From: Mycobacterium sp. UM_CSW
GTDB taxonomy: Bacteria; Actinomycetota; Actinomycetes; Mycobacteriales; Mycobacteriaceae
NCBI RefSeq assembly: GCF_000455205.1
Contig: NZ_AUWQ01000005.1
Coordinates: 27,603 to 91,602 of the forward strand
DNA length: 64,000 nucleotides
Direction of reading: 5' to 3'
Made by a program: the position numbers and the translations under genes. The notes beneath the pieces are model-generated. The model was given only the letters and a program-made list of their open reading frames with translations, made no database searches and was not told the DNA's origin. This document shows, in pieces, positions 3,397 through 62,578 of the stretch; position 1 is the first letter of the stretch, and each line of letters begins with the position of its first letter.

Positions 3397-4601
3397 AACT
3401 TGCACCACGGCGGCCGCCGGCCCGTGTCGCCCGCTTCGAGCGGGATCTCGGCACGCACCGACCACCCGTCGCTCGTCGGGCCGACGTCGATCGCGCCGCC
3501 CAGCAGTTCGACGCGCTGGCGCATGCCGCTCACCCCGCGCCCTTCCACGCACGGGGCCGCGGCCACCGCGGCCGGCAGCCGATTGTCGATGACGAGGCTT
3601 GCTGAGACCGCTGAAACGCTCAGCGCCACCGTTGATTTCGAATCGGGGGCATGTTTGGCGATGTTGGTCAGCGATTCCTGGGCGATGCGATACAGCGCGT
3701 GGCCGACGGCCGCCGAGACGCGCGGGGTGGGGCCCTCGACGCGCAGTGTGACGGCCAGACCGGCGCGCTCGTAATCCCCGACGAGGAGCCGGATGTCGTC
3801 GATGCCGGGCTCGGGCGCGATCTTCATTGGCGAATCGTTGAGCAGCCCGACGGTCCGGCGGATGTCGGCCATCGCCTGCCGGCCCAGCCGCTCGGCCTGT
3901 TCGAGCGCCTCCACCGCGTCATCGACGTCGCGATCCTGCTGCAGCGCCCGCCGCGCACCGGTCACGTGCAACAGCGTGATGGACAGCGAGTGGGCGATGA
4001 CGTCGTGCACTTCTCGGGCGATGCGCCGACGCTCGTCGGCGGCGGCGTGCTCGGCCAGCGCCTCCTGCGCACGGATCTGCTCGGCCAGCAGCAGCCGTTG
4101 GCTGCGCATGATGTAGCCGAGCAGCCAGCCCGCCGCAACGAAACCGAGGTATAGGGCGACCGCGTCCAGGCGGTGAAGCGCGGCCGCCGCAAGCAGCAGC
4201 CCGGCCGCCGACGCGGCTGCCAGCAAGCCGCCCGCAATGGAGCTCAATGTCGCGACGGATAGGACCATGAGCACCAGCAGCGCCGGGGCGAAATCGGCAT
4301 GAACGGGTGTCGGCGTGCCGAACAGCATGATGGCGGTAGCCGTCGACCAGGTTGCCCACATCAGCAACGGGCTGAGCTTCATGTTGAAGAAAAAGAACAG
4401 CAGCGTCGGTGAGACCGACACCGCGAGCGCCGCCAGCACCACGGGCAGGCCGGCGGTTGGGCGTTGCAGGATCGCGATCACCCAGGCGCCCACCTCGGTG
4501 ACGTCGACAGCGACAAACGACGTCCAAGTGATACCCACGGGGATCAGCTCGCTGCGCCGGCGAAGCTGTTCCCGCAGGTAATCCGCCACGACACGCAACA
4601 T
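3393..4601 (-). CDS. NarL-type sensor histidine kinase (HisKA_3)
   Basis: 402 residues. The first 165 residues hold about five or six hydrophobic membrane segments with little room for an external sensor domain, so sensing is probably within the membrane. The dimerisation/phospho-acceptor motif ERRRIAREVHDVIAHSLS carries H199. The ATPase domain shows an N-box (HALYRIAQESLTNIAKHA) and a G-box (GRGVSGMRQRVELLGG). Its 3' end overlaps the response regulator start by four bases. It is divergent from the small gene at 4735 and the MmpL gene, separated by about 130 bases. Confidence 0.9.
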   Translation of the reverse strand: MLRVVADYLREQLRRRSELIPVGITWTSFVAVDVTEVGAWVIAILQRPTAGLPVVLAALAVSVSPTLLFFFFNMKLSPLLMWATWSTATAIMLFGTPTPVHADFAPALLVLMVLSVATLSSIAGGLLAAASAAGLLLAAAALHRLDAVALYLGFVAAGWLLGYIMRSQRLLLAEQIRAQEALAEHAAADERRRIAREVHDVIAHSLSITLLHVTGARRALQQDRDVDDAVEALEQAERLGRQAMADIRRTVGLLNDSPMKIAPEPGIDDIRLLVGDYERAGLAVTLRVEGPTPRVSAAVGHALYRIAQESLTNIAKHAPDSKSTVALSVSAVSASLVIDNRLPAAVAAAPCVEGRGVSGMRQRVELLGGAIDVGPTSDGWSVRAEIPLEAGDTGRRPPWCKL

Positions 4602-4734
4602 CGTCCAATCCTAAGAGAGCTTCGCTCCTCGTCACATCATGCCGAGGTCGGCACCCGTCTCCGCCCGTGGTAGGAGGCAAAAACCGAACCTCGGCACGAC
4701 GCGCGGCAGAGGTCCGCCTTCCTACCGTCGAGTC

Positions 4735-5112
4735 ATGACATGGACACTGCTGCACGACCGGATGGCCTTCATGGCCAACGTGATCAAGGCCGCCGAGACC
4801 GATCCCGAGGCGGCCCTCGCGCTGGCCGACGGTTCGTCCGAGGTGTCGCGGCTGTTCGGCGACGAGGAGGGCCTACTGCTTTCGCTGCGGCAGCGCTGGA
4901 TGACGATGCTCGTCGCCAAGCTGGATCAGGCGGCGCACGACGGCGTTGCGGCCGAACGAGTGCGGGCCGACCTCGCGGCCGCCGAGCCCGGGCTGCACGC
5001 CCTGCTGGAGATCGCCTCCAGGCGCTCGCTGCGGGTGCGTTCCCTGTCCGGGGACGAGCGACGGGTGATGGAGTTGCTGGGCGGACCCAGCGATCGGCAG
5101 ACCGTTGCTTGA
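4735..5112 (+). CDS. Conserved hypothetical protein upstream of MmpL
   Basis: 125 residues, mostly helical and hydrophilic, with no signal peptide and no recognised family; it is not an MmpS-type protein. The ATG at 4735 is chosen because upstream in-frame codons look non-coding. Its last bases overlap the start of the MmpL gene by eight bases, so the two are one transcription and translation unit. Its role may be tied to the transporter, but nothing in the sequence proves it. Confidence 0.7.
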   Translation: MTWTLLHDRMAFMANVIKAAETDPEAALALADGSSEVSRLFGDEEGLLLSLRQRWMTMLVAKLDQAAHDGVAAERVRADLAAAEPGLHALLEIASRRSLRVRSLSGDERRVMELLGGPSDRQTVA

Positions 5113-7957
5113 CGGAACGGGAATCGTCTCGCGCCTTACCGGCCGATACGCGATCCTGATCGTCGGCCTGTGGATCCTGGCGGCGGCCGGCGCCAATCTG
5201 GCCGTGCCGCAATTGGAACGGGTCGTGGACACACACGCCCGCACGTTCATGCCTGCTGACGCGCCGAGTTCCGTCGCCGCGTCCCGCGCCGCCGGGCTGT
5301 TCGGCCAAAAGCCAAGCAACAACTTCGTTTACGTCGTGCTGGAAAGTGATCAGCGCCTCACGCCGCGCGACCGCCAGTTCTATGACGCGCTGACCGCAGC
5401 CCTGTCCGCCGATCGTGGCCACGTCAACGCGTTGACCGACTTGTGGTCACAGCCCGCCACGGCGGCGGGCGCCCAGAGTTCCGACGGGCGGGCCGTCAGC
5501 CTGATGGTGCGGCTCGCCGGAATGCTCGGCACGTCCGCGGCCCGCGATTCGGTGAATGCCGTGCGCGGCGACGTGGCCAAGCTGTCACCACCGCCGGCCC
5601 TGCGCGTCCTCGTTACCGGTCCCGGCGCCACCATCGTCGACGAATTCTCCGCCATCGACCGGCAGATGCTCATGATCACCGCCGCCACGGTCGGTGTCAT
5701 CCTGCTGTTGCTGCTGTTGGTATACCGATCACCGATCGCCGCGGCGATCCCCCTGACCTCGGTCGGCATCGCGCTGGCCTTGGCCCGTTCCCTCGCTGCG
5801 GCGTTTGGCCAGGCCAATGTCGTTGAGGTGTCGCTGTTCTCGGCGGCGCTCATGGCGGCGATGACGTTGGGCGCCGGCACCGACTACGCGATCTTCCTCA
5901 TCGGCCGCTACCACGAAGGCCGGCGCCGCGCTATCGCGCCGCCGCAGGCGCTGGCCGAGGCCTACCGGGCCGTCGCGCCGGTGGTCATCGGATCGGCGCT
6001 GACGGTGTCGGTTGCGCTCGGATGCCTCGGGTTCGCCAGGGTCGGAATGTTCCGCAGCGCCGGGATACCATGCGCGATAGGAGTTTTGGTCACCATGGCC
6101 GCCGCGCTGACGCTGACGCCCGCGCTCATGGGCCTGGCCCTGCGCGGTGGGTTTCTCGAGCCGCGGCCCTCGACGACGTCGCGGCGCTGGCGGCGCGTGG
6201 GAGCAGCGGTGACCCGCTGGCCCGGCCCCATCCTGATCACCGCGGGCGGCTTGACCCTGCTGGCGGCGCTGCCGCTGGCGGGCACGCGGATCGGGTGGAA
6301 CGAACCGGCCGCCACCCCCGCCGGCGCCGAATCCAGCCGCGGCTACGCGGCCAGCGACCGGCACTTTGCGTCGAATTCGCTACTGCCCGAAGTCGTCACC
6401 ATTCAGGCCGACCACGACCTGCGCAACCCGGCGGGGCTGATCGCGGTCGAACGGATCACACGCCAGATCATGGCGATCCCGGGTGTGCGCATGGTGCAGT
6501 CCGCGAGCCGCCCCGACGGCAGGGTGCCCGACGAGGCGACGTTGACGTATCAGACCGGAGTGCTCGGCCGTCAGCTCGGGGACACGATCGACTCACTGAC
6601 CCAACGGCTGAACCGGGTCTCCGAACTCGACAGCGCTCTGGCGCAGACACAAATCGCGGTGGACAGGCTGGGGGGTGGATTGCGCGGCGGCAGCGCGGGT
6701 TTGGCCGACATGTCCGCGGCCGCGGACGACATGCGTAGCGGCATGGACGGCGTCCAACGTTCCGTCACCACAGTATCGGGTTACCTCGACCCGCTGCGGG
6801 ATTTCGTCGCTCGCACCCCGGGCTGCGATGCCAACCCGATCTGCTCGACGGTGGACCGTGCGCTCCAGCCCGTCGACAACCTGGTGCAGACTTCGACGCG
6901 GCTCGGCGACGGCGCGGCCAAGCTGACCAGCGGGTCAAGCGCCGCCGCGACGGCCATCTCGAGCTTGCCGCAGACCGTGAATTCGATGAAAGACGCTCTA
7001 GGACAAGCGCGCTCGGCCACTCACGAATTGCTGAGCCTGAGCGAGACGATCGGGCCGCAGCTGCACCAGTTGACCGATTACCTGACCGAGATCGCCACCC
7101 AATTTCAGGGCAGCGCCGCGTCCGGTTTCTACCTGCCGCAACGCGCGCTGACCGACCCGCGGTACATCGAGGTCCTGCACCAACTGATCTCGGCCGATGG
7201 CCGCTCCACCTACCTGCTGGTCTACGGCGAGGGGAATGAATGGGGCGCCGAGGGCGCGGCGCGGGCGGATCGGGTGCGCACGGCGATCAAGGAGGCCACC
7301 AAGGAAGGAACGCTGGCGCCGACGGGCGTCGACCTGGCCGGCGTCGGCCCCGTGACCTCCGATCTGCAGCACTTTGTCGCGCGTGACAGCGCATTGCTCG
7401 TGGGTGCGGCGCTGGTCCTCATCTTCCTGATCGTCACGGCGATGCTGCGCAGTCCGGTGGCCGGGCTGGTCGTCGTCGGCACCGTCGTCGCCTCCTACGC
7501 GTCGGCGCTGGGCATCAGCGCGCTCATTTGGCAGCGCCTGCTTCATCACGAGTTGCACTGGGCGGTCGCGCCCATCGCCTTCATCGCATTGATCGCCGTC
7601 GGCGCGGACTACAACCTGCTGCTGGCGTTGCGGATCAAGCAGGAGGCAACCGCGGGAATCAGAACGGGCATCATCCGCGCGTTCGGTGGCACCGGCGGGG
7701 TAGTCACGACCGCGGGCATCGTCTTCGGGCTCACCATGCTCGCGTTGCTGGGCAGCAGCGTGCTCAGCATTGCGCAGATCGGCACGACCATCGCGATCGG
7801 GTTGATGATGGACACGCTGGTCGTGCGGGCGCTCGTCGTGCCGTCCATTGTCGCGTTGCTGGGTAGGTGGTTCTTCTGGCCGCGGGCCGTCCCGCCGCGG
7901 GGTCCGGCGCCGATGAAAGCGCCCGAGCGCCAACTGGTTTCGGCGGCAAGCAGCTAG
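5105..7957 (+). CDS. MmpL-family RND transporter
   Basis: 950 residues with a TTG start overlapping the previous gene. One N-terminal transmembrane helix is followed by an extracytoplasmic domain, a membrane bundle containing GAGTDYAIFLIGRYHEG, a second large external loop with long helical segments (about residues 495-700), and a second bundle containing AVGADYNLLLALR. The paired Asp-Tyr motifs are the proton-relay signature of MmpL proteins, which export lipids or siderophores across the inner membrane. The partner is the 125-residue protein, not an MmpS. The cargo is unknown. The stop is three bases from the convergent reductase gene. Confidence 0.92.
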   Translation: MLDGTGIVSRLTGRYAILIVGLWILAAAGANLAVPQLERVVDTHARTFMPADAPSSVAASRAAGLFGQKPSNNFVYVVLESDQRLTPRDRQFYDALTAALSADRGHVNALTDLWSQPATAAGAQSSDGRAVSLMVRLAGMLGTSAARDSVNAVRGDVAKLSPPPALRVLVTGPGATIVDEFSAIDRQMLMITAATVGVILLLLLLVYRSPIAAAIPLTSVGIALALARSLAAAFGQANVVEVSLFSAALMAAMTLGAGTDYAIFLIGRYHEGRRRAIAPPQALAEAYRAVAPVVIGSALTVSVALGCLGFARVGMFRSAGIPCAIGVLVTMAAALTLTPALMGLALRGGFLEPRPSTTSRRWRRVGAAVTRWPGPILITAGGLTLLAALPLAGTRIGWNEPAATPAGAESSRGYAASDRHFASNSLLPEVVTIQADHDLRNPAGLIAVERITRQIMAIPGVRMVQSASRPDGRVPDEATLTYQTGVLGRQLGDTIDSLTQRLNRVSELDSALAQTQIAVDRLGGGLRGGSAGLADMSAAADDMRSGMDGVQRSVTTVSGYLDPLRDFVARTPGCDANPICSTVDRALQPVDNLVQTSTRLGDGAAKLTSGSSAAATAISSLPQTVNSMKDALGQARSATHELLSLSETIGPQLHQLTDYLTEIATQFQGSAASGFYLPQRALTDPRYIEVLHQLISADGRSTYLLVYGEGNEWGAEGAARADRVRTAIKEATKEGTLAPTGVDLAGVGPVTSDLQHFVARDSALLVGAALVLIFLIVTAMLRSPVAGLVVVGTVVASYASALGISALIWQRLLHHELHWAVAPIAFIALIAVGADYNLLLALRIKQEATAGIRTGIIRAFGGTGGVVTTAGIVFGLTMLALLGSSVLSIAQIGTTIAIGLMMDTLVVRALVVPSIVALLGRWFFWPRAVPPRGPAPMKAPERQLVSAASS

Positions 7958-58464: not shown

Positions 58465-59109
58465 GTGAAGACCAGGGTCTACAACCAGAACTGCCCCATT
58501 GCGCGTGGTCTGGACATCATCGGCGAACGCTGGACACTGCTCATCGTGCGCGAACTCATCGGCGGCCCCCGCCGCTACAGCGACCTGCGGGCGGAGCTGC
58601 CCGGCATCGCCACCAACCTGCTCGCACAACGCCTCAAAGAGCTCCAAGACGCCGGGCTGATCGACCGCACCGACCTGCCCGCGCCGATCGGGCGCACCGT
58701 GTACACGCTCACCGACACCGCCTGGCAGCGCGTGCTTCCCATCGTGCAGGCCATCGCCCTCTTCGGCCTGGACAAGCTCGATCCCATGGACAGCAGCGCG
58801 GTCACACCGCTCAACGGCTTCCTCGCGGGCGTGCTGCTGGCCTTCGATCCGGCCGCCGCAGCCAACCTGAACACCACCTACCGCATCGACATCGACGGCC
58901 GGCGTTTCGAATTCGCCGTCACCAACGGACATCTCGCCAGCGCTCGCGGCGAACCCGGCGTTATTGTCACCGCAGCCGCCGCAGACCTCATCGCCATCCG
59001 CCTCGGCGGCGACGCCGCCACCCGCAAGTCCGCGCTGCGTCGAGTCCGCTTCGACGGCGACAAAGAAGCCGTCGACACGATGCGTGATGCCTTTTCCCTG
59101 CGCGGTTGA
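58465..59109 (+). CDS. HxlR-family transcriptional regulator with C-terminal extension
   Basis: 214 residues, longer than the usual 110 of HxlR. The N-terminal winged helix is typical: CPIARGLDIIGERWTLLIVR, then GGPRRYSDLRAELPGIATNL. Cys10 in the NCPIA turn is the redox-sensing position in some HxlR proteins. The additional C-terminal domain (RIDIDGRRFEFAVTNGHLAS) resembles a sterol-carrier-type ligand-binding unit. It probably regulates the divergent SDR gene. Confidence 0.88.
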   Translation: MKTRVYNQNCPIARGLDIIGERWTLLIVRELIGGPRRYSDLRAELPGIATNLLAQRLKELQDAGLIDRTDLPAPIGRTVYTLTDTAWQRVLPIVQAIALFGLDKLDPMDSSAVTPLNGFLAGVLLAFDPAAAANLNTTYRIDIDGRRFEFAVTNGHLASARGEPGVIVTAAAADLIAIRLGGDAATRKSALRRVRFDGDKEAVDTMRDAFSLRG

Positions 59110-59494: not shown

Positions 59495-62400
59495 TCACCT
59501 CGCCATGTTGGCGAAGCGCGACAGGTGCAGTTGGTGCGCGACCGTAACCGTCTTGGTCGGGCCGTTGCGATGTTTGGCGAGAATGAAATCCGCCTCTCCT
59601 CCACGCGGATCGTCACGCTCGAATGCGTCCGGCCGGTGCAGCAGGATGACGACGTCGGCATCTTGTTCCAAAGAATTGTGTACGCCGATGCCGTTGGCGA
59701 CGAAATTATGTGTGCCACTTACCGTTCCGTCGTAAACGTCCTCTTCACCCAAACTCGTGATCTCGACGACCGTGTCCCAGTAGACGTCGGTGGTCGCAAG
59801 CGCGTGGATCTCCCGATCATCGAGCACGACCGCCGCGCGATGCAGCCTGGACCTACTCGGCTTGTGCTTCCACATCGTGGAGCCGCAGAACTGACTACCC
59901 ATCGCCGACGCAAACTCTCGGTGCGTGATCTCTTTGGCGGACAGTACCTCGCGGACACGCTCCCACACCTCTTTCGGAATCGTGTCCAGGTTCGTGTTGC
60001 GCACGATCGTTTCGAGATGACGCCGCACGTCTTCTGCCGCCGCCGCTTTCGCGCCGTGGACGCCCACGTGGTTAACGAACCGCAGCTGATTCTCGACCCC
60101 ATAGATCAGCAAGTGCCACGAGTCGCGGTAGCCAAGCTTGGGCGCATGCTTGATCCTCGCAAAGACTCCAACCCTGAGCAGCAGCTGGGCGACGTCATCT
60201 ATTAGGCGCCGGCTGGTCGACGCGTAGTAAATCCGCGCCTGCCCGACCTTGGCGTCCCATCGAACTGAGCCGTCGGTTGCCCAGAGGTGCCGCAGGAACA
60301 ATGCCACCTGGTCGTTGGGCGCACGAAATACGGCCTCCGGCACGAACTTCTCGTAACTGCGCTTGCCGAACAGCCCCATTCCATCGAGCCATGCAGCAAT
60401 GGGGTTGCGTCGGCCGCGCGCCAGTCGTTCCGGCGACGGCAACCGCAGCGTGGTCACTCGCGCCGCCGGGTATTCGTCGCGGATCGCCTTCACCCCGAAG
60501 TGCGCCGCGGAGATCGTCACCGCGGCGAGGTTCGCCTCGTCGATTGATGCGTAGCGGATCGGCTGGCGCTTCACGCATGACCCGTCACCGATCATGTGGG
60601 CGAGGAGCATCACCTCGCAGTCATCCATCCGCTGCGTGTCGACCGGCTCGGGAACGCGCCGGGGTGCGGCGATGCGATCGCCGATCTTGAGCTGCTCCAA
60701 CGGAGTCCAGCCATCGAGCTTCATGAACGGGTGGTTACCGGTGGCCTCGACCTCGCGGCCCGAGGCGAGCCGAAGCCGGAACACCTCCTTGCGGCCACTC
60801 GGGAAGACATTGGTCATGGGGCGCGCGACCATGCGCAGCCGCTCGTCCAGCGACCACACCAGCGGACGTTCGCCCGTCCGCATCAGCTCACCGAACGTGA
60901 CCTCAGCCCCGGTGTCGGCGCGCAGGATTCGCGTCGATGCGGTCAGGCATCCCGACTCGCGAAGATCGGCGAGCATCGGCCTCTTGTCGGTGCGCTGCTC
61001 CGGACCGCGGTTGAGCTGGCTGATCGCCACCACCGGAACCTCGAGTTCCTTCGCCAAAAGCTTGAGGTGCCTTGAAAATTCGGACACCTCCACCTGGCGC
61101 GACTCGTGCTTCTTGCCTGACGTCATCAGCTGCATGTAGTCGATGACGATCAACCGCAGGTCGGCCTTCTGCCGCAGCCGGCGCGCCTTGGCCCGGATCT
61201 CCATCATGGTCAAGTTGGGCGAGTCGTCGATATACAGTGGCGCCTCGCTGATTTCGCTCATCCGCCGCGCCAGGCGTGTCCAGTCGTCGTCGCTCATGCG
61301 GCCCGAGCGCATGTCGGCGAGCTTGATCTTGGCCTCGGCCGACAGCAGCCGCATCACGATCTCGGATTTGCTCATCTCCAGCGAGAAGATGACGCTGGCC
61401 AGCCGGTGCTTGATGGAACACGACCGCATGAAGTCCAGACCCAGCGTGGAATTGTGCGTCGGCACCATCCCAGGGCCGGCCAGATAAAGACGCGCGGCGT
61501 TGTCCACCTGGACACAGCGCACCGGCACACTTTCCATGCGGCGCACCGAGGTGATCTGCAGCACAGGAGCCAACAAGGCCGTCGTCCCAAGGTTTGCGTA
61601 GTGCGGCGTCGTGCCGGCCGCCGCAATCGCGTCACAGCCGCTGCGCAGCTGAGCCGATGTCCGGATGCCGCGAGTCGTCGGCCACTGATGTGCGGCGTCC
61701 GCGGTGATCACTGTCCCGTCCGAGAACTCCACCTCGTAGCAGGGCCGCCCGAGCATCACCTCGGTAGCGGCTACCACCCGCGTCGGCTGCCCGTCGGCAT
61801 CGAGCAGCTCCTCTCCGACCGCGACGTCTCCCATGGTTGTCCAACCGCCTGGGGTCGGCAGGGGCGTTTTCAGCGCCAGCGCCTTGCCCACGCCGGGTCG
61901 GGCCGCCACGATGATCATCTGCCCGGGGTGCAGGCCGTTGGTCACCTCGTCGAGCTCGGTGAAACCGGTCAGCACCCCGCGTGACACCCCGCCGCTGGAC
62001 GCGATGGCGTCGATCTCGTCCATCGTCGGCTGCAGCAGGTCCTCGAGGGGAACGAAGTCCTCGGACATCCGGCGGTCGGCGACGTCGTAGATCTCTGCCT
62101 GCGCGCGGTCGACTATCTCGGCCACGTCGGCGCCCTCGGCGCCCGCGTAGCCGTATTGCACGACCCGCGTGCCCGCCTCCACCAGCCGGCGCAGCAGGGC
62201 CTTCTCGGCGACGATGCCCGCGTAATAGCCCGCGTTGGCCGCCGTCGGCACCGTAGAGATCAGGGTGTGCAGATAGGGCGCACCGCCGATGCGGCGCAGC
62301 ATTCCGCGACGGTCCAGTTCCGCGGCGACCGTCACGGCGTCGGCCGGCTCGCCGCGCCCGTAGAGGTCAAGGATCGCGTCGTAGACATTCTGGTGCGCCG

Positions 62401-62578
62401 GGCGATAGAAGTCGCCGGGCCGCAGCCGCTCCAAGACGTCGGCGATCGCGTCCTTGCTCAGCAGCATCCCGCCCAGCACCGACTGCTCCGCGGCGAGATC
62501 CTGGGGGGGCTGGCGGCCGAACTCTTCGTTGGGTGGCGACGAATCCATGCCTGGCGCGAGGTCATCGACGACCGCCAC
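59495..62578 (-). CDS. dnaB: Replicative DNA helicase DnaB with two inteins
   Basis: The 1027-residue precursor contains DnaB exteins totalling 458 residues, the usual length. N-terminal domain: EFGRQPPQDLAAEQSVLGGM. Walker A is ARPGVGK (226-232), interrupted right after the Lys by intein 1 (233-376) and resuming STLGLDFM. Walker B region is LRLIVIDYMQL. Intein 2 (544-968) splits ADLRESG from SLEQDADVVILLHRP. The GTG start has GGGAGGTGAGAG upstream. Both inteins must splice out for an active hexamer. Upstream is the ssb-rpsR-rplI block. Confidence 0.97.
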   Translation of the reverse strand: MAVVDDLAPGMDSSPPNEEFGRQPPQDLAAEQSVLGGMLLSKDAIADVLERLRPGDFYRPAHQNVYDAILDLYGRGEPADAVTVAAELDRRGMLRRIGGAPYLHTLISTVPTAANAGYYAGIVAEKALLRRLVEAGTRVVQYGYAGAEGADVAEIVDRAQAEIYDVADRRMSEDFVPLEDLLQPTMDEIDAIASSGGVSRGVLTGFTELDEVTNGLHPGQMIIVAARPGVGKALALKTPLPTPGGWTTMGDVAVGEELLDADGQPTRVVAATEVMLGRPCYEVEFSDGTVITADAAHQWPTTRGIRTSAQLRSGCDAIAAAGTTPHYANLGTTALLAPVLQITSVRRMESVPVRCVQVDNAARLYLAGPGMVPTHNSTLGLDFMRSCSIKHRLASVIFSLEMSKSEIVMRLLSAEAKIKLADMRSGRMSDDDWTRLARRMSEISEAPLYIDDSPNLTMMEIRAKARRLRQKADLRLIVIDYMQLMTSGKKHESRQVEVSEFSRHLKLLAKELEVPVVAISQLNRGPEQRTDKRPMLADLRESGCLTASTRILRADTGAEVTFGELMRTGERPLVWSLDERLRMVARPMTNVFPSGRKEVFRLRLASGREVEATGNHPFMKLDGWTPLEQLKIGDRIAAPRRVPEPVDTQRMDDCEVMLLAHMIGDGSCVKRQPIRYASIDEANLAAVTISAAHFGVKAIRDEYPAARVTTLRLPSPERLARGRRNPIAAWLDGMGLFGKRSYEKFVPEAVFRAPNDQVALFLRHLWATDGSVRWDAKVGQARIYYASTSRRLIDDVAQLLLRVGVFARIKHAPKLGYRDSWHLLIYGVENQLRFVNHVGVHGAKAAAAEDVRRHLETIVRNTNLDTIPKEVWERVREVLSAKEITHREFASAMGSQFCGSTMWKHKPSRSRLHRAAVVLDDREIHALATTDVYWDTVVEITSLGEEDVYDGTVSGTHNFVANGIGVHNSLEQDADVVILLHRPDAFERDDPRGGEADFILAKHRNGPTKTVTVAHQLHLSRFANMAR
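59675..60949 (-). other. Intein 2 of DnaB, class 1 with LAGLIDADG endonuclease
   Basis: 425 residues (precursor 544-968). Block A CLTASTRILRADTGAEVTFG begins with Cys. Block B: EATGNHPFMK. Block C LLAHMIGDGSC and block E FLRHLWATDGSVRW carry both acidic residues of the LAGLIDADG endonuclease; KFVPEAVF and RRLIDDVAQLLLRVGV are blocks D and H. Blocks F/G: VYDGTVSGTHNFVANG ending in VHN, then Ser. It is inserted at the same site as the M. tuberculosis DnaB intein, from memory. Confidence 0.93.
61451..61882 (-). other. Intein 1 of DnaB, class 3 mini-intein in the P-loop
   Basis: 144 residues (precursor 233-376), without an endonuclease domain. It begins with Ala (ALALKTPLPTPGGWTTMGDV) rather than Cys or Ser and ends VPTHN before Ser. 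The class 3 triad is present: W299 two residues after the block B His, C355 at the block F position usually Asp, and T374 just before the penultimate His. Splicing should start from C355. The insertion separates GK from ST of Walker A. Confidence 0.93.

Follow-up and report, generated by a model that had tools for sequence, protein, structure and literature searches.

The window analysed here, a stretch of 64,000 nucleotides of contig NZ_AUWQ01000005.1 from Mycobacterium sp. UM_CSW, carries a dnaB gene, encoding the replicative helicase, that is interrupted by two inteins: intein 1 in the ATP-binding P-loop (site b, class 3) and intein 2 in the DNA-binding H4 loop (site a, class 1). We consider it highly probable (roughly 0.88) that the gene encodes a working double-intein helicase of the same kind as the DnaB of M. 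smegmatis. The pair is not new, the same arrangement having been published for M. smegmatis in 2018 (Kelley 2018, PMC6195587). The host was placed in Mycobacterium by its relatives, and its genome of 6.39 Mb is 99.99% complete.

The dnaB precursor and its two inteins

The precursor is encoded by a single open reading frame (Table 1). The coordinates, the codon-exact joints and the extein total of 458 residues given in the initial annotation were exact when the frame was read and the exteins were counted (232 + 167 + 59). Intein 1 (ALALK to PTHN) lies between GVGK and STLGL, and intein 2 (CLTAS to GVHN) between RESG and SLEQD. Chance insertion is excluded because identical joints were found filled or empty in other genomes; among the inserts of the 201 dnaB rows read (see below), only that of genome G393 broke the frame. 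A Pfam profile scan identified the DnaB N domain, the DnaB C domain, Intein_splicing and LAGLIDADG_3 in the precursor, with no Pfam match inside intein 1 at E 0.01. The NCBIfam model PRK07773.1 matched the precursor with 1480 bits, the best stretch being residues 376-1027, intein 2 included. Both domains of a replicative DnaB are thus present, in the sole DnaB found in the genome.

Table 1. Coordinates of the dnaB precursor, its parts and key residues in the window, and of separate site-a intein copies in related genomes
Feature	Position	Strand	Description
dnaB precursor, two-intein replicative helicase	59495..62578	-	1027 aa, GTG start, stop 59495-59497
N-extein	61883..62578	-	232 codons, C-terminal end ARPGVGK (P-loop)
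Intein 1 (DnaB-b / DnaBi1 type)	61451..61882	-	144 aa, class 3 mini-intein without endonuclease
Cys48 of intein 1	61739..61741	-	redox partner cysteine in M. smegmatis
Trp67 of intein 1	61682..61684	-	W of the class 3 WCT triplet
Cys123 of intein 1	61514..61516	-	block F nucleophile, C of WCT
Middle extein	60950..61450	-	167 codons, codon 1 = Ser+1 of intein 1
Intein 2 (DnaB-a / DnaBi2 type)	59675..60949	-	425 aa, class 1, Cys1 to His-Asn
First LAGLIDADG-type motif of intein 2	60581..60607	-	LLAHMIGDG
Second LAGLIDADG-type motif of intein 2	60269..60301	-	LFLRHLWATDG
C-extein	59498..59674	-	59 codons, codon 1 = Ser+1 of intein 2
Separate site-a copy, genome G322	L038:3640-4926
Separate site-a copies, 18 further genomes	on L035-L053
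Separate site-a copy, M. tusciae	on L273

The assignment of one class 3 and one class 1 intein in the initial annotation was right, the tested class-defining residues being present in both. The signature of class 3 is a WCT triplet (Trp B:12, Cys F:4, Thr G:5) with serine or threonine at +1, and the class 3 route, in which splicing passes through a block F branched intermediate, has been demonstrated for the P-loop inteins of M. smegmatis and M. leprae (PMC5222942). Intein 1 has Trp67, Cys123, Thr142 and Ser+1, and its first residue is not Cys, Ser or Thr; Ala1 was found in 127/127 and 80/80 copies of two overlapping sets. All eight class 3 residues (Ala1, Asp62, His65, Trp67, Cys123, Thr142, His143 and Asn144) were present, and they were invariant in the 127 aligned Mycobacterium copies (102 mini and 25 large; G393, with its site-b insert out of frame, was excluded) and in 80 named actinobacterial loci, the most similar of 346 relatives, except for one change of His143 to Arg. 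By phmmer, residues 233-376 of the precursor aligned end to end with solved DnaB intein chains (6rix, 1-145 of 145; 6riy, 1-145 of 146; 6bs8, 1-139 of 139; E from 4e-66 to 1e-57); the chain sequence of 6bs8 is identical to that of 6own, the zinc-bound DnaBi1 of M. smegmatis (PMC7360933). When named records were ranked by similarity to intein 1, in a listing that may omit entries from the genome of the window, the closest included Mycobacterium sp. E796 (92%), sp. 1245805.9 (88%) and M. palustre (84%). Intein 1 has no endonuclease and is unable to home by itself.

Intein 2 carries the class 1 residues Cys1, Thr70 and His73 of block B (TxxH), His424-Asn425 and Ser+1. The five intein residues were invariant in 89/89 aligned in-frame copies longer than 400 aa, an alignment that left out in-frame site-a inserts of up to 400 aa and the broken or partial free-standing copies of G054, G066 and G280 described below. 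Both LAGLIDADG-type motifs retain their acidic residue (PF14528, E 1e-26), and among the aligned in-frame copies Asp122 was conserved in 89/89 and Asp226 in 87/89. The distances between site-a inteins tracked those of the flanking C-extein (partial r 0.30, with 0 of 1000 permutations as high), the pattern expected if the intein moves with short flanks. Intein 2 thus carries a predicted LAGLIDADG endonuclease whose two acidic residues are in place, and it probably remains mobile.

The helicase would work as follows. The precursor would be translated whole; intein 2 would initiate at its own Cys1 and exit via Ser+1 of the C-extein, and intein 1 would initiate at the internal Cys123 and exit via the P-loop serine. 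The ATP-binding loop would be continuous only after the excision of intein 1, and the H4 DNA-binding loop only after that of intein 2, both excisions yielding the 458-residue DnaB. Intein 1 would be the slow step, and oxidation could pause it through a Cys48-Cys123 disulfide. The splicing of both inteins, the slowness of intein 1 and the oxidative pause are drawn from the M. smegmatis homologue. There, splicing of the class 3 P-loop intein DnaBi1 is slow and can be reversibly halted by oxidation via Cys48-Cys118, and the class 1 H4-loop intein DnaBi2 is fast and unresponsive to oxidation (Kelley 2018, PMC6195587). Zinc also blocks the splicing of DnaBi1 (PMC7360933).

As far as the presence of cysteines goes, intein 1 has the second cysteine at position 48 that a redox toggle would need. 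Cys48 is termed non-conserved in the discussion of the 2018 paper (PMC6195587); in our survey it was invariant in every DnaB-b copy aligned (127/127 from Mycobacterium and 80/80 named actinobacterial copies). A third cysteine, at position 83, was unique to the window among the 102 aligned mini copies. Of the redox sensitivity that the initial annotation had suggested for replication through both inteins, the part that concerns intein 1 is supported by homology, and the part that concerns intein 2 is not, given the reported behaviour of DnaBi2. Three points weigh against the proposed working. The splicing and redox control of this helicase lean on the M. smegmatis homologue, not on the protein of the window. 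Cys48 may be conserved for splicing activity and not for redox sensing, because every Cys48 substitution tried in M. smegmatis DnaBi1 abolished splicing (Kelley 2018, PMC6195587). Finally, the mobility of intein 2 is judged from intact motifs and from the tracking of C-extein distances.

The reading as a working helicase is carried by the anatomy of the gene, the catalytic residues and their conservation, and by the search for another dnaB. We regard it as very improbable that one of the inserts is a splicing-dead relic, tolerated by a working helicase or through a second dnaB. An intein called a pseudogene has been reported in Arthrobacter (Arth_1007), but nothing in the present genome supports such a state: the tested splice residues are intact in both inteins, the first insert interrupts the P-loop, and the enzyme is essential, and a second intact dnaB, the possibility of which had been raised in the initial annotation, was not found by a PF03796 profile search of the 99.99%-complete genome. 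The sole other match was a 64-residue piece whose best family was RadA/Sms, with a score that fell short of the whole-protein cut-off of that model because the piece alone was scanned.

The genes rplI and rpsR lie upstream of dnaB. Downstream, and convergent with it, is an HxlR-type regulator (window positions 58465-59109, plus strand) with weak similarity, below the cut-off, to the redox-sensing RrpB family. A further class 1-type intein with LAGLIDADG was observed elsewhere in the genome of the window (G000:C1, near 161643; locus L318), spanning CFPAG to VVHN and preceding CFLL; judged by eye, its 1203-aa host frame resembles the large subunit of a ribonucleotide reductase.

Distribution of the two inteins

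The N-extein (E 1e-30), intein 1 (E 1e-20) and intein 2 (E 1e-40) were searched against 396 Mycobacterium genomes and matched in 392, 257 and 119 of them, respectively; site-a inteins diverged or shrunk past E 1e-40 would escape this search. When the E-value classes were sorted by hand, 100 genomes had an in-frame intein 2, 137 had a mini-type intein 1 and 82 had both. Two of the 100 (G048 and G212) end at contig ends, and site b of another (G279) was unreadable. We read 201 rows in sequence (200 fetched loci and the window), a sample enriched for site-a carriers since it comprises all those found, the rest having been chosen in part for being close to the window and for their class. Inserts at both sites were present in 81 rows, including G393. 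The others comprised 16 with site a only and b empty (for example G272), 35 with mini b only, 27 with neither (for example G116 and G227), 20 with large b only, 19 with a separate site-a copy (site b empty in 8, mini in 5, large in 5 and undetermined in 1), and 3 cut by contig ends. The P-loop insert of G393 (locus L072) measures 126.3 codons and is out of frame, indicating a frameshift or an assembly error. Double occupancy, described as unusual in the initial annotation, is not so within the genus (82/396 genomes and 81/201 rows of the enriched sample); two inteins per gene is the less common scenario in general, according to Kelley 2018 (PMC6195587).

No large site-b intein (271-417 aa) was found beside an in-frame site-a intein among the 97 carriers with both sites read, so that intein 2 and its homologues were accompanied only by an empty site b or by an endonuclease-less intein. 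On the tree, this exclusion offered only about two informative independent pairs (median p 0.5) and may reflect shared ancestry. Two of the 25 large site-b inteins, whose loci include L175 and L038, were scanned; one matched LAGLIDADG_3 and Hom_end above the cut-off, the other LAGLIDADG_3 below it, and the remainder are taken as endonuclease-bearing by their length. A 2016 paper states that DnaB-b inteins lack endonucleases, which does not hold for the first large intein scanned.

Among 42 named Mycobacteriaceae loci, including one titled only Actinomycetota (L247, 91% N-extein identity), the site-a insert was present in 20, absent in 20 and cut in 2. Outside the family, 23 of 38 sampled loci with DnaB-b also carried a site-a insert (317-445 aa), two of the 23 being only 35% identical to intein 2; inserts at both sites were seen in Nocardia, Saccharopolyspora, Kribbella, Nocardioides and others. 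The site-b inserts of two of the 80 named loci (L276 and L297) had a non-whole number of codons. In one genome with an empty dnaB P-loop (G020), a class 3 intein homologue (60% identity) was present in a 709-aa frame on a contig other than that of dnaB (G020:C2:281139-281528).

Joint occupancy and proposed escape of the site-a intein

The mini-type intein at site b was present in 82/100 genomes with an in-frame site-a intein and in 55/296 without one, an odds ratio of 20 before correction for kinship. Two explanations were weighed. A tentative one is co-homing: the intein 2 endonuclease would cut an empty dnaB, and repair would also copy the mini-intein 501 bp away, so that intein 1, itself lacking an endonuclease, would be maintained by riding with intein 2. 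The other, a serious contender although we give it somewhat less than an even chance, is that both inteins, long present in Actinobacteria, were inherited vertically and lost independently, in which case the association is shared ancestry. The doubly occupied loci outside Mycobacteriaceae are consistent with such age, and the intein distances follow the host (raw r from 0.36 to 0.55 with quarters of the N-extein). Against vertical inheritance, 31 site-a and 46 site-b state changes on the N-extein tree indicate that gain or loss was frequent, and the association holds up when independent pairs are compared. In that comparison, from which G101, G185, G179, G135 and G279 were dropped for an incomplete N-extein, site b changed the same way as site a in 9.1 and the opposite way in 0.2 of 16 pairs (median p 0.004, range 0.001-0.109). 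A smaller tree of 158 rows, since replaced by the larger one, had given 6.2 and 0.3 of 15 for site a and mini b (median p 0.031).

The models of gain and loss also favoured joint steps. Four-state models were fitted to 169/196 tips, leaving out 25 large-b tips and 2 of undetermined state, and those with joint gain or loss had a corrected Akaike information criterion (AICc) of 335.5 and 338.7, compared to 342.5 for dependence without a joint step and 370.6 for independence. With large b included in six states, the best AICc was 444.3 with joint steps and 450.0 without. These results are to be read with the facts that genomes were chosen non-randomly for reading in sequence, that the tree is built on one short gene segment, itself possibly recombining, and that few optimiser starts were used. 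Moreover, across 71 genomes carrying both inteins, the distances of intein 1 and of intein 2 were uncorrelated given the N-extein (partial r -0.02, 625 of 1000 permutations as high), and a shared recent transfer of both was thus not seen. Co-homing of the M. smegmatis dnaB inteins was raised as a possibility in a 2023 haloarchaeal paper, and two endonuclease-bearing inteins co-homed inefficiently in Haloferax. The presence and absence models thus favour joint gain and the intein sequence distances do not, and co-homing stays a tentative reading.

In 19/396 Mycobacterium genomes, a separate intein 2 match lay outside the dnaB frame, with site a of dnaB empty. Seventeen of the 19 start 13 to 274 bases past the end of the C-extein match, and those of G101 and G262 are some 4-5 kb from dnaB; that of G316 is on the opposite strand. 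Three were broken or partial (G054, G066 and G280) and 16 intact. Extra intein 2 fragments were also observed in G367 and G179, besides the in-frame intein. In an alignment of the 16 intact copies and the 89 in-frame inteins, the splicing residues of the former were largely lost (Cys1 kept in 0/16, His73 in 1/16, His424 in 4/16, and Asn425 in none of the 15 of 16 for which the residue was printed), whereas both endonuclease aspartates, Asp122 and Asp226, were retained in 16/16. The mean identity of the endonuclease part was 0.749 for the separate copies and 0.763 for the in-frame inteins, while the splicing parts fell to 0.448 vs 0.844 (N-terminal) and 0.453 vs 0.765 (C-terminal). Behind the broken copy of G066 lies a second partial DnaB C-extein (locus L053, about 4433-5839 in dnaB orientation), a hint that this arrangement originated by rearrangement of an intein-bearing dnaB.

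A quick tree of the endonuclease part (LG+G4) placed 17 free copies, including that of M. tusciae, in three starred clades (of 8, 5 and 4) interspersed with in-frame inteins, with 3 state changes; the group table of the tree gives 1 state change, as only outgroup rows are counted there as others. A single clade of free copies, a group set by position before the tree was seen, was rejected (approximately unbiased test, p 0.019). The topology suggests three escapes of the site-a intein endonuclease from dnaB. The serine codon of RESG begins with TC in 98/98 occupied, 73/82 empty and 11/18 free-copy genomes, and with AG in the rest. These counts may hint at an empty site a shielded from cutting in carriers of free copies, but the free-copy and empty groups differ little overall, the mean mismatches to the occupied consensus over the central 30 bases being 8.4 for free-copy and 7.2 for empty genomes, with relatedness uncontrolled. 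Mycobacterial free copies were not described in the literature searched, which comprised titles and the starts of abstracts, most subscription papers being out of reach. Taken jointly, the site-a intein could be an evolving mobile system with two exits, the co-homing of its class 3 neighbour and the release of its endonuclease, a combination that we consider unlikely to hold in full.

Comparison with known systems

The closest known system is the M. smegmatis dnaB with DnaBi1 and DnaBi2, for which splicing data, the redox toggle and a crystal structure are published (Kelley 2018, PMC6195587). The gene, the sites (P-loop = b, H4 loop = a) and the classes (3 and 1) are the same, the endonuclease is in the second intein only, and Cys48 and the block F cysteine are in the first. 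Intein 1 measures 139 aa in M. smegmatis and 144 aa, with the extra Cys83, in the window. With the window, a regulatory arrangement already published for an essential gene gains one more well-conserved instance. The DnaB inteins of M. leprae and M. tuberculosis are each homologous to one of the two described here, but occur singly. The statement in the initial annotation that M. leprae has only the first and M. tuberculosis only the second agrees with section 6 of Kelley 2018 (PMC6195587), on which the M. tuberculosis statement is based; for M. leprae it is also borne out by locus L253, with a P-loop intein of 145 aa and an empty site a.

The gene of the haloarchaeal MCM helicase (PMC10643990), also a replicative helicase, likewise holds two inteins close to each other. 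In Haloferax mediterranei both have working endonucleases, whereas in the dnaB of the window only one is endonuclease-bearing.

Our survey is of more use than the window itself, and the separate intein-derived endonuclease genes beside dnaB are a lead outside it. The yeast HO protein is a free-standing endonuclease of intein origin. If the joint account of the site-a intein were true, one gene would show both the co-homing of a dead-weight intein and the repeated, HO-like release of an intein endonuclease. HO resembles the separate site-a copies of the relatives and not the intein of the window, and it differs from those copies, which lie near dnaB, in its host, gene and role.

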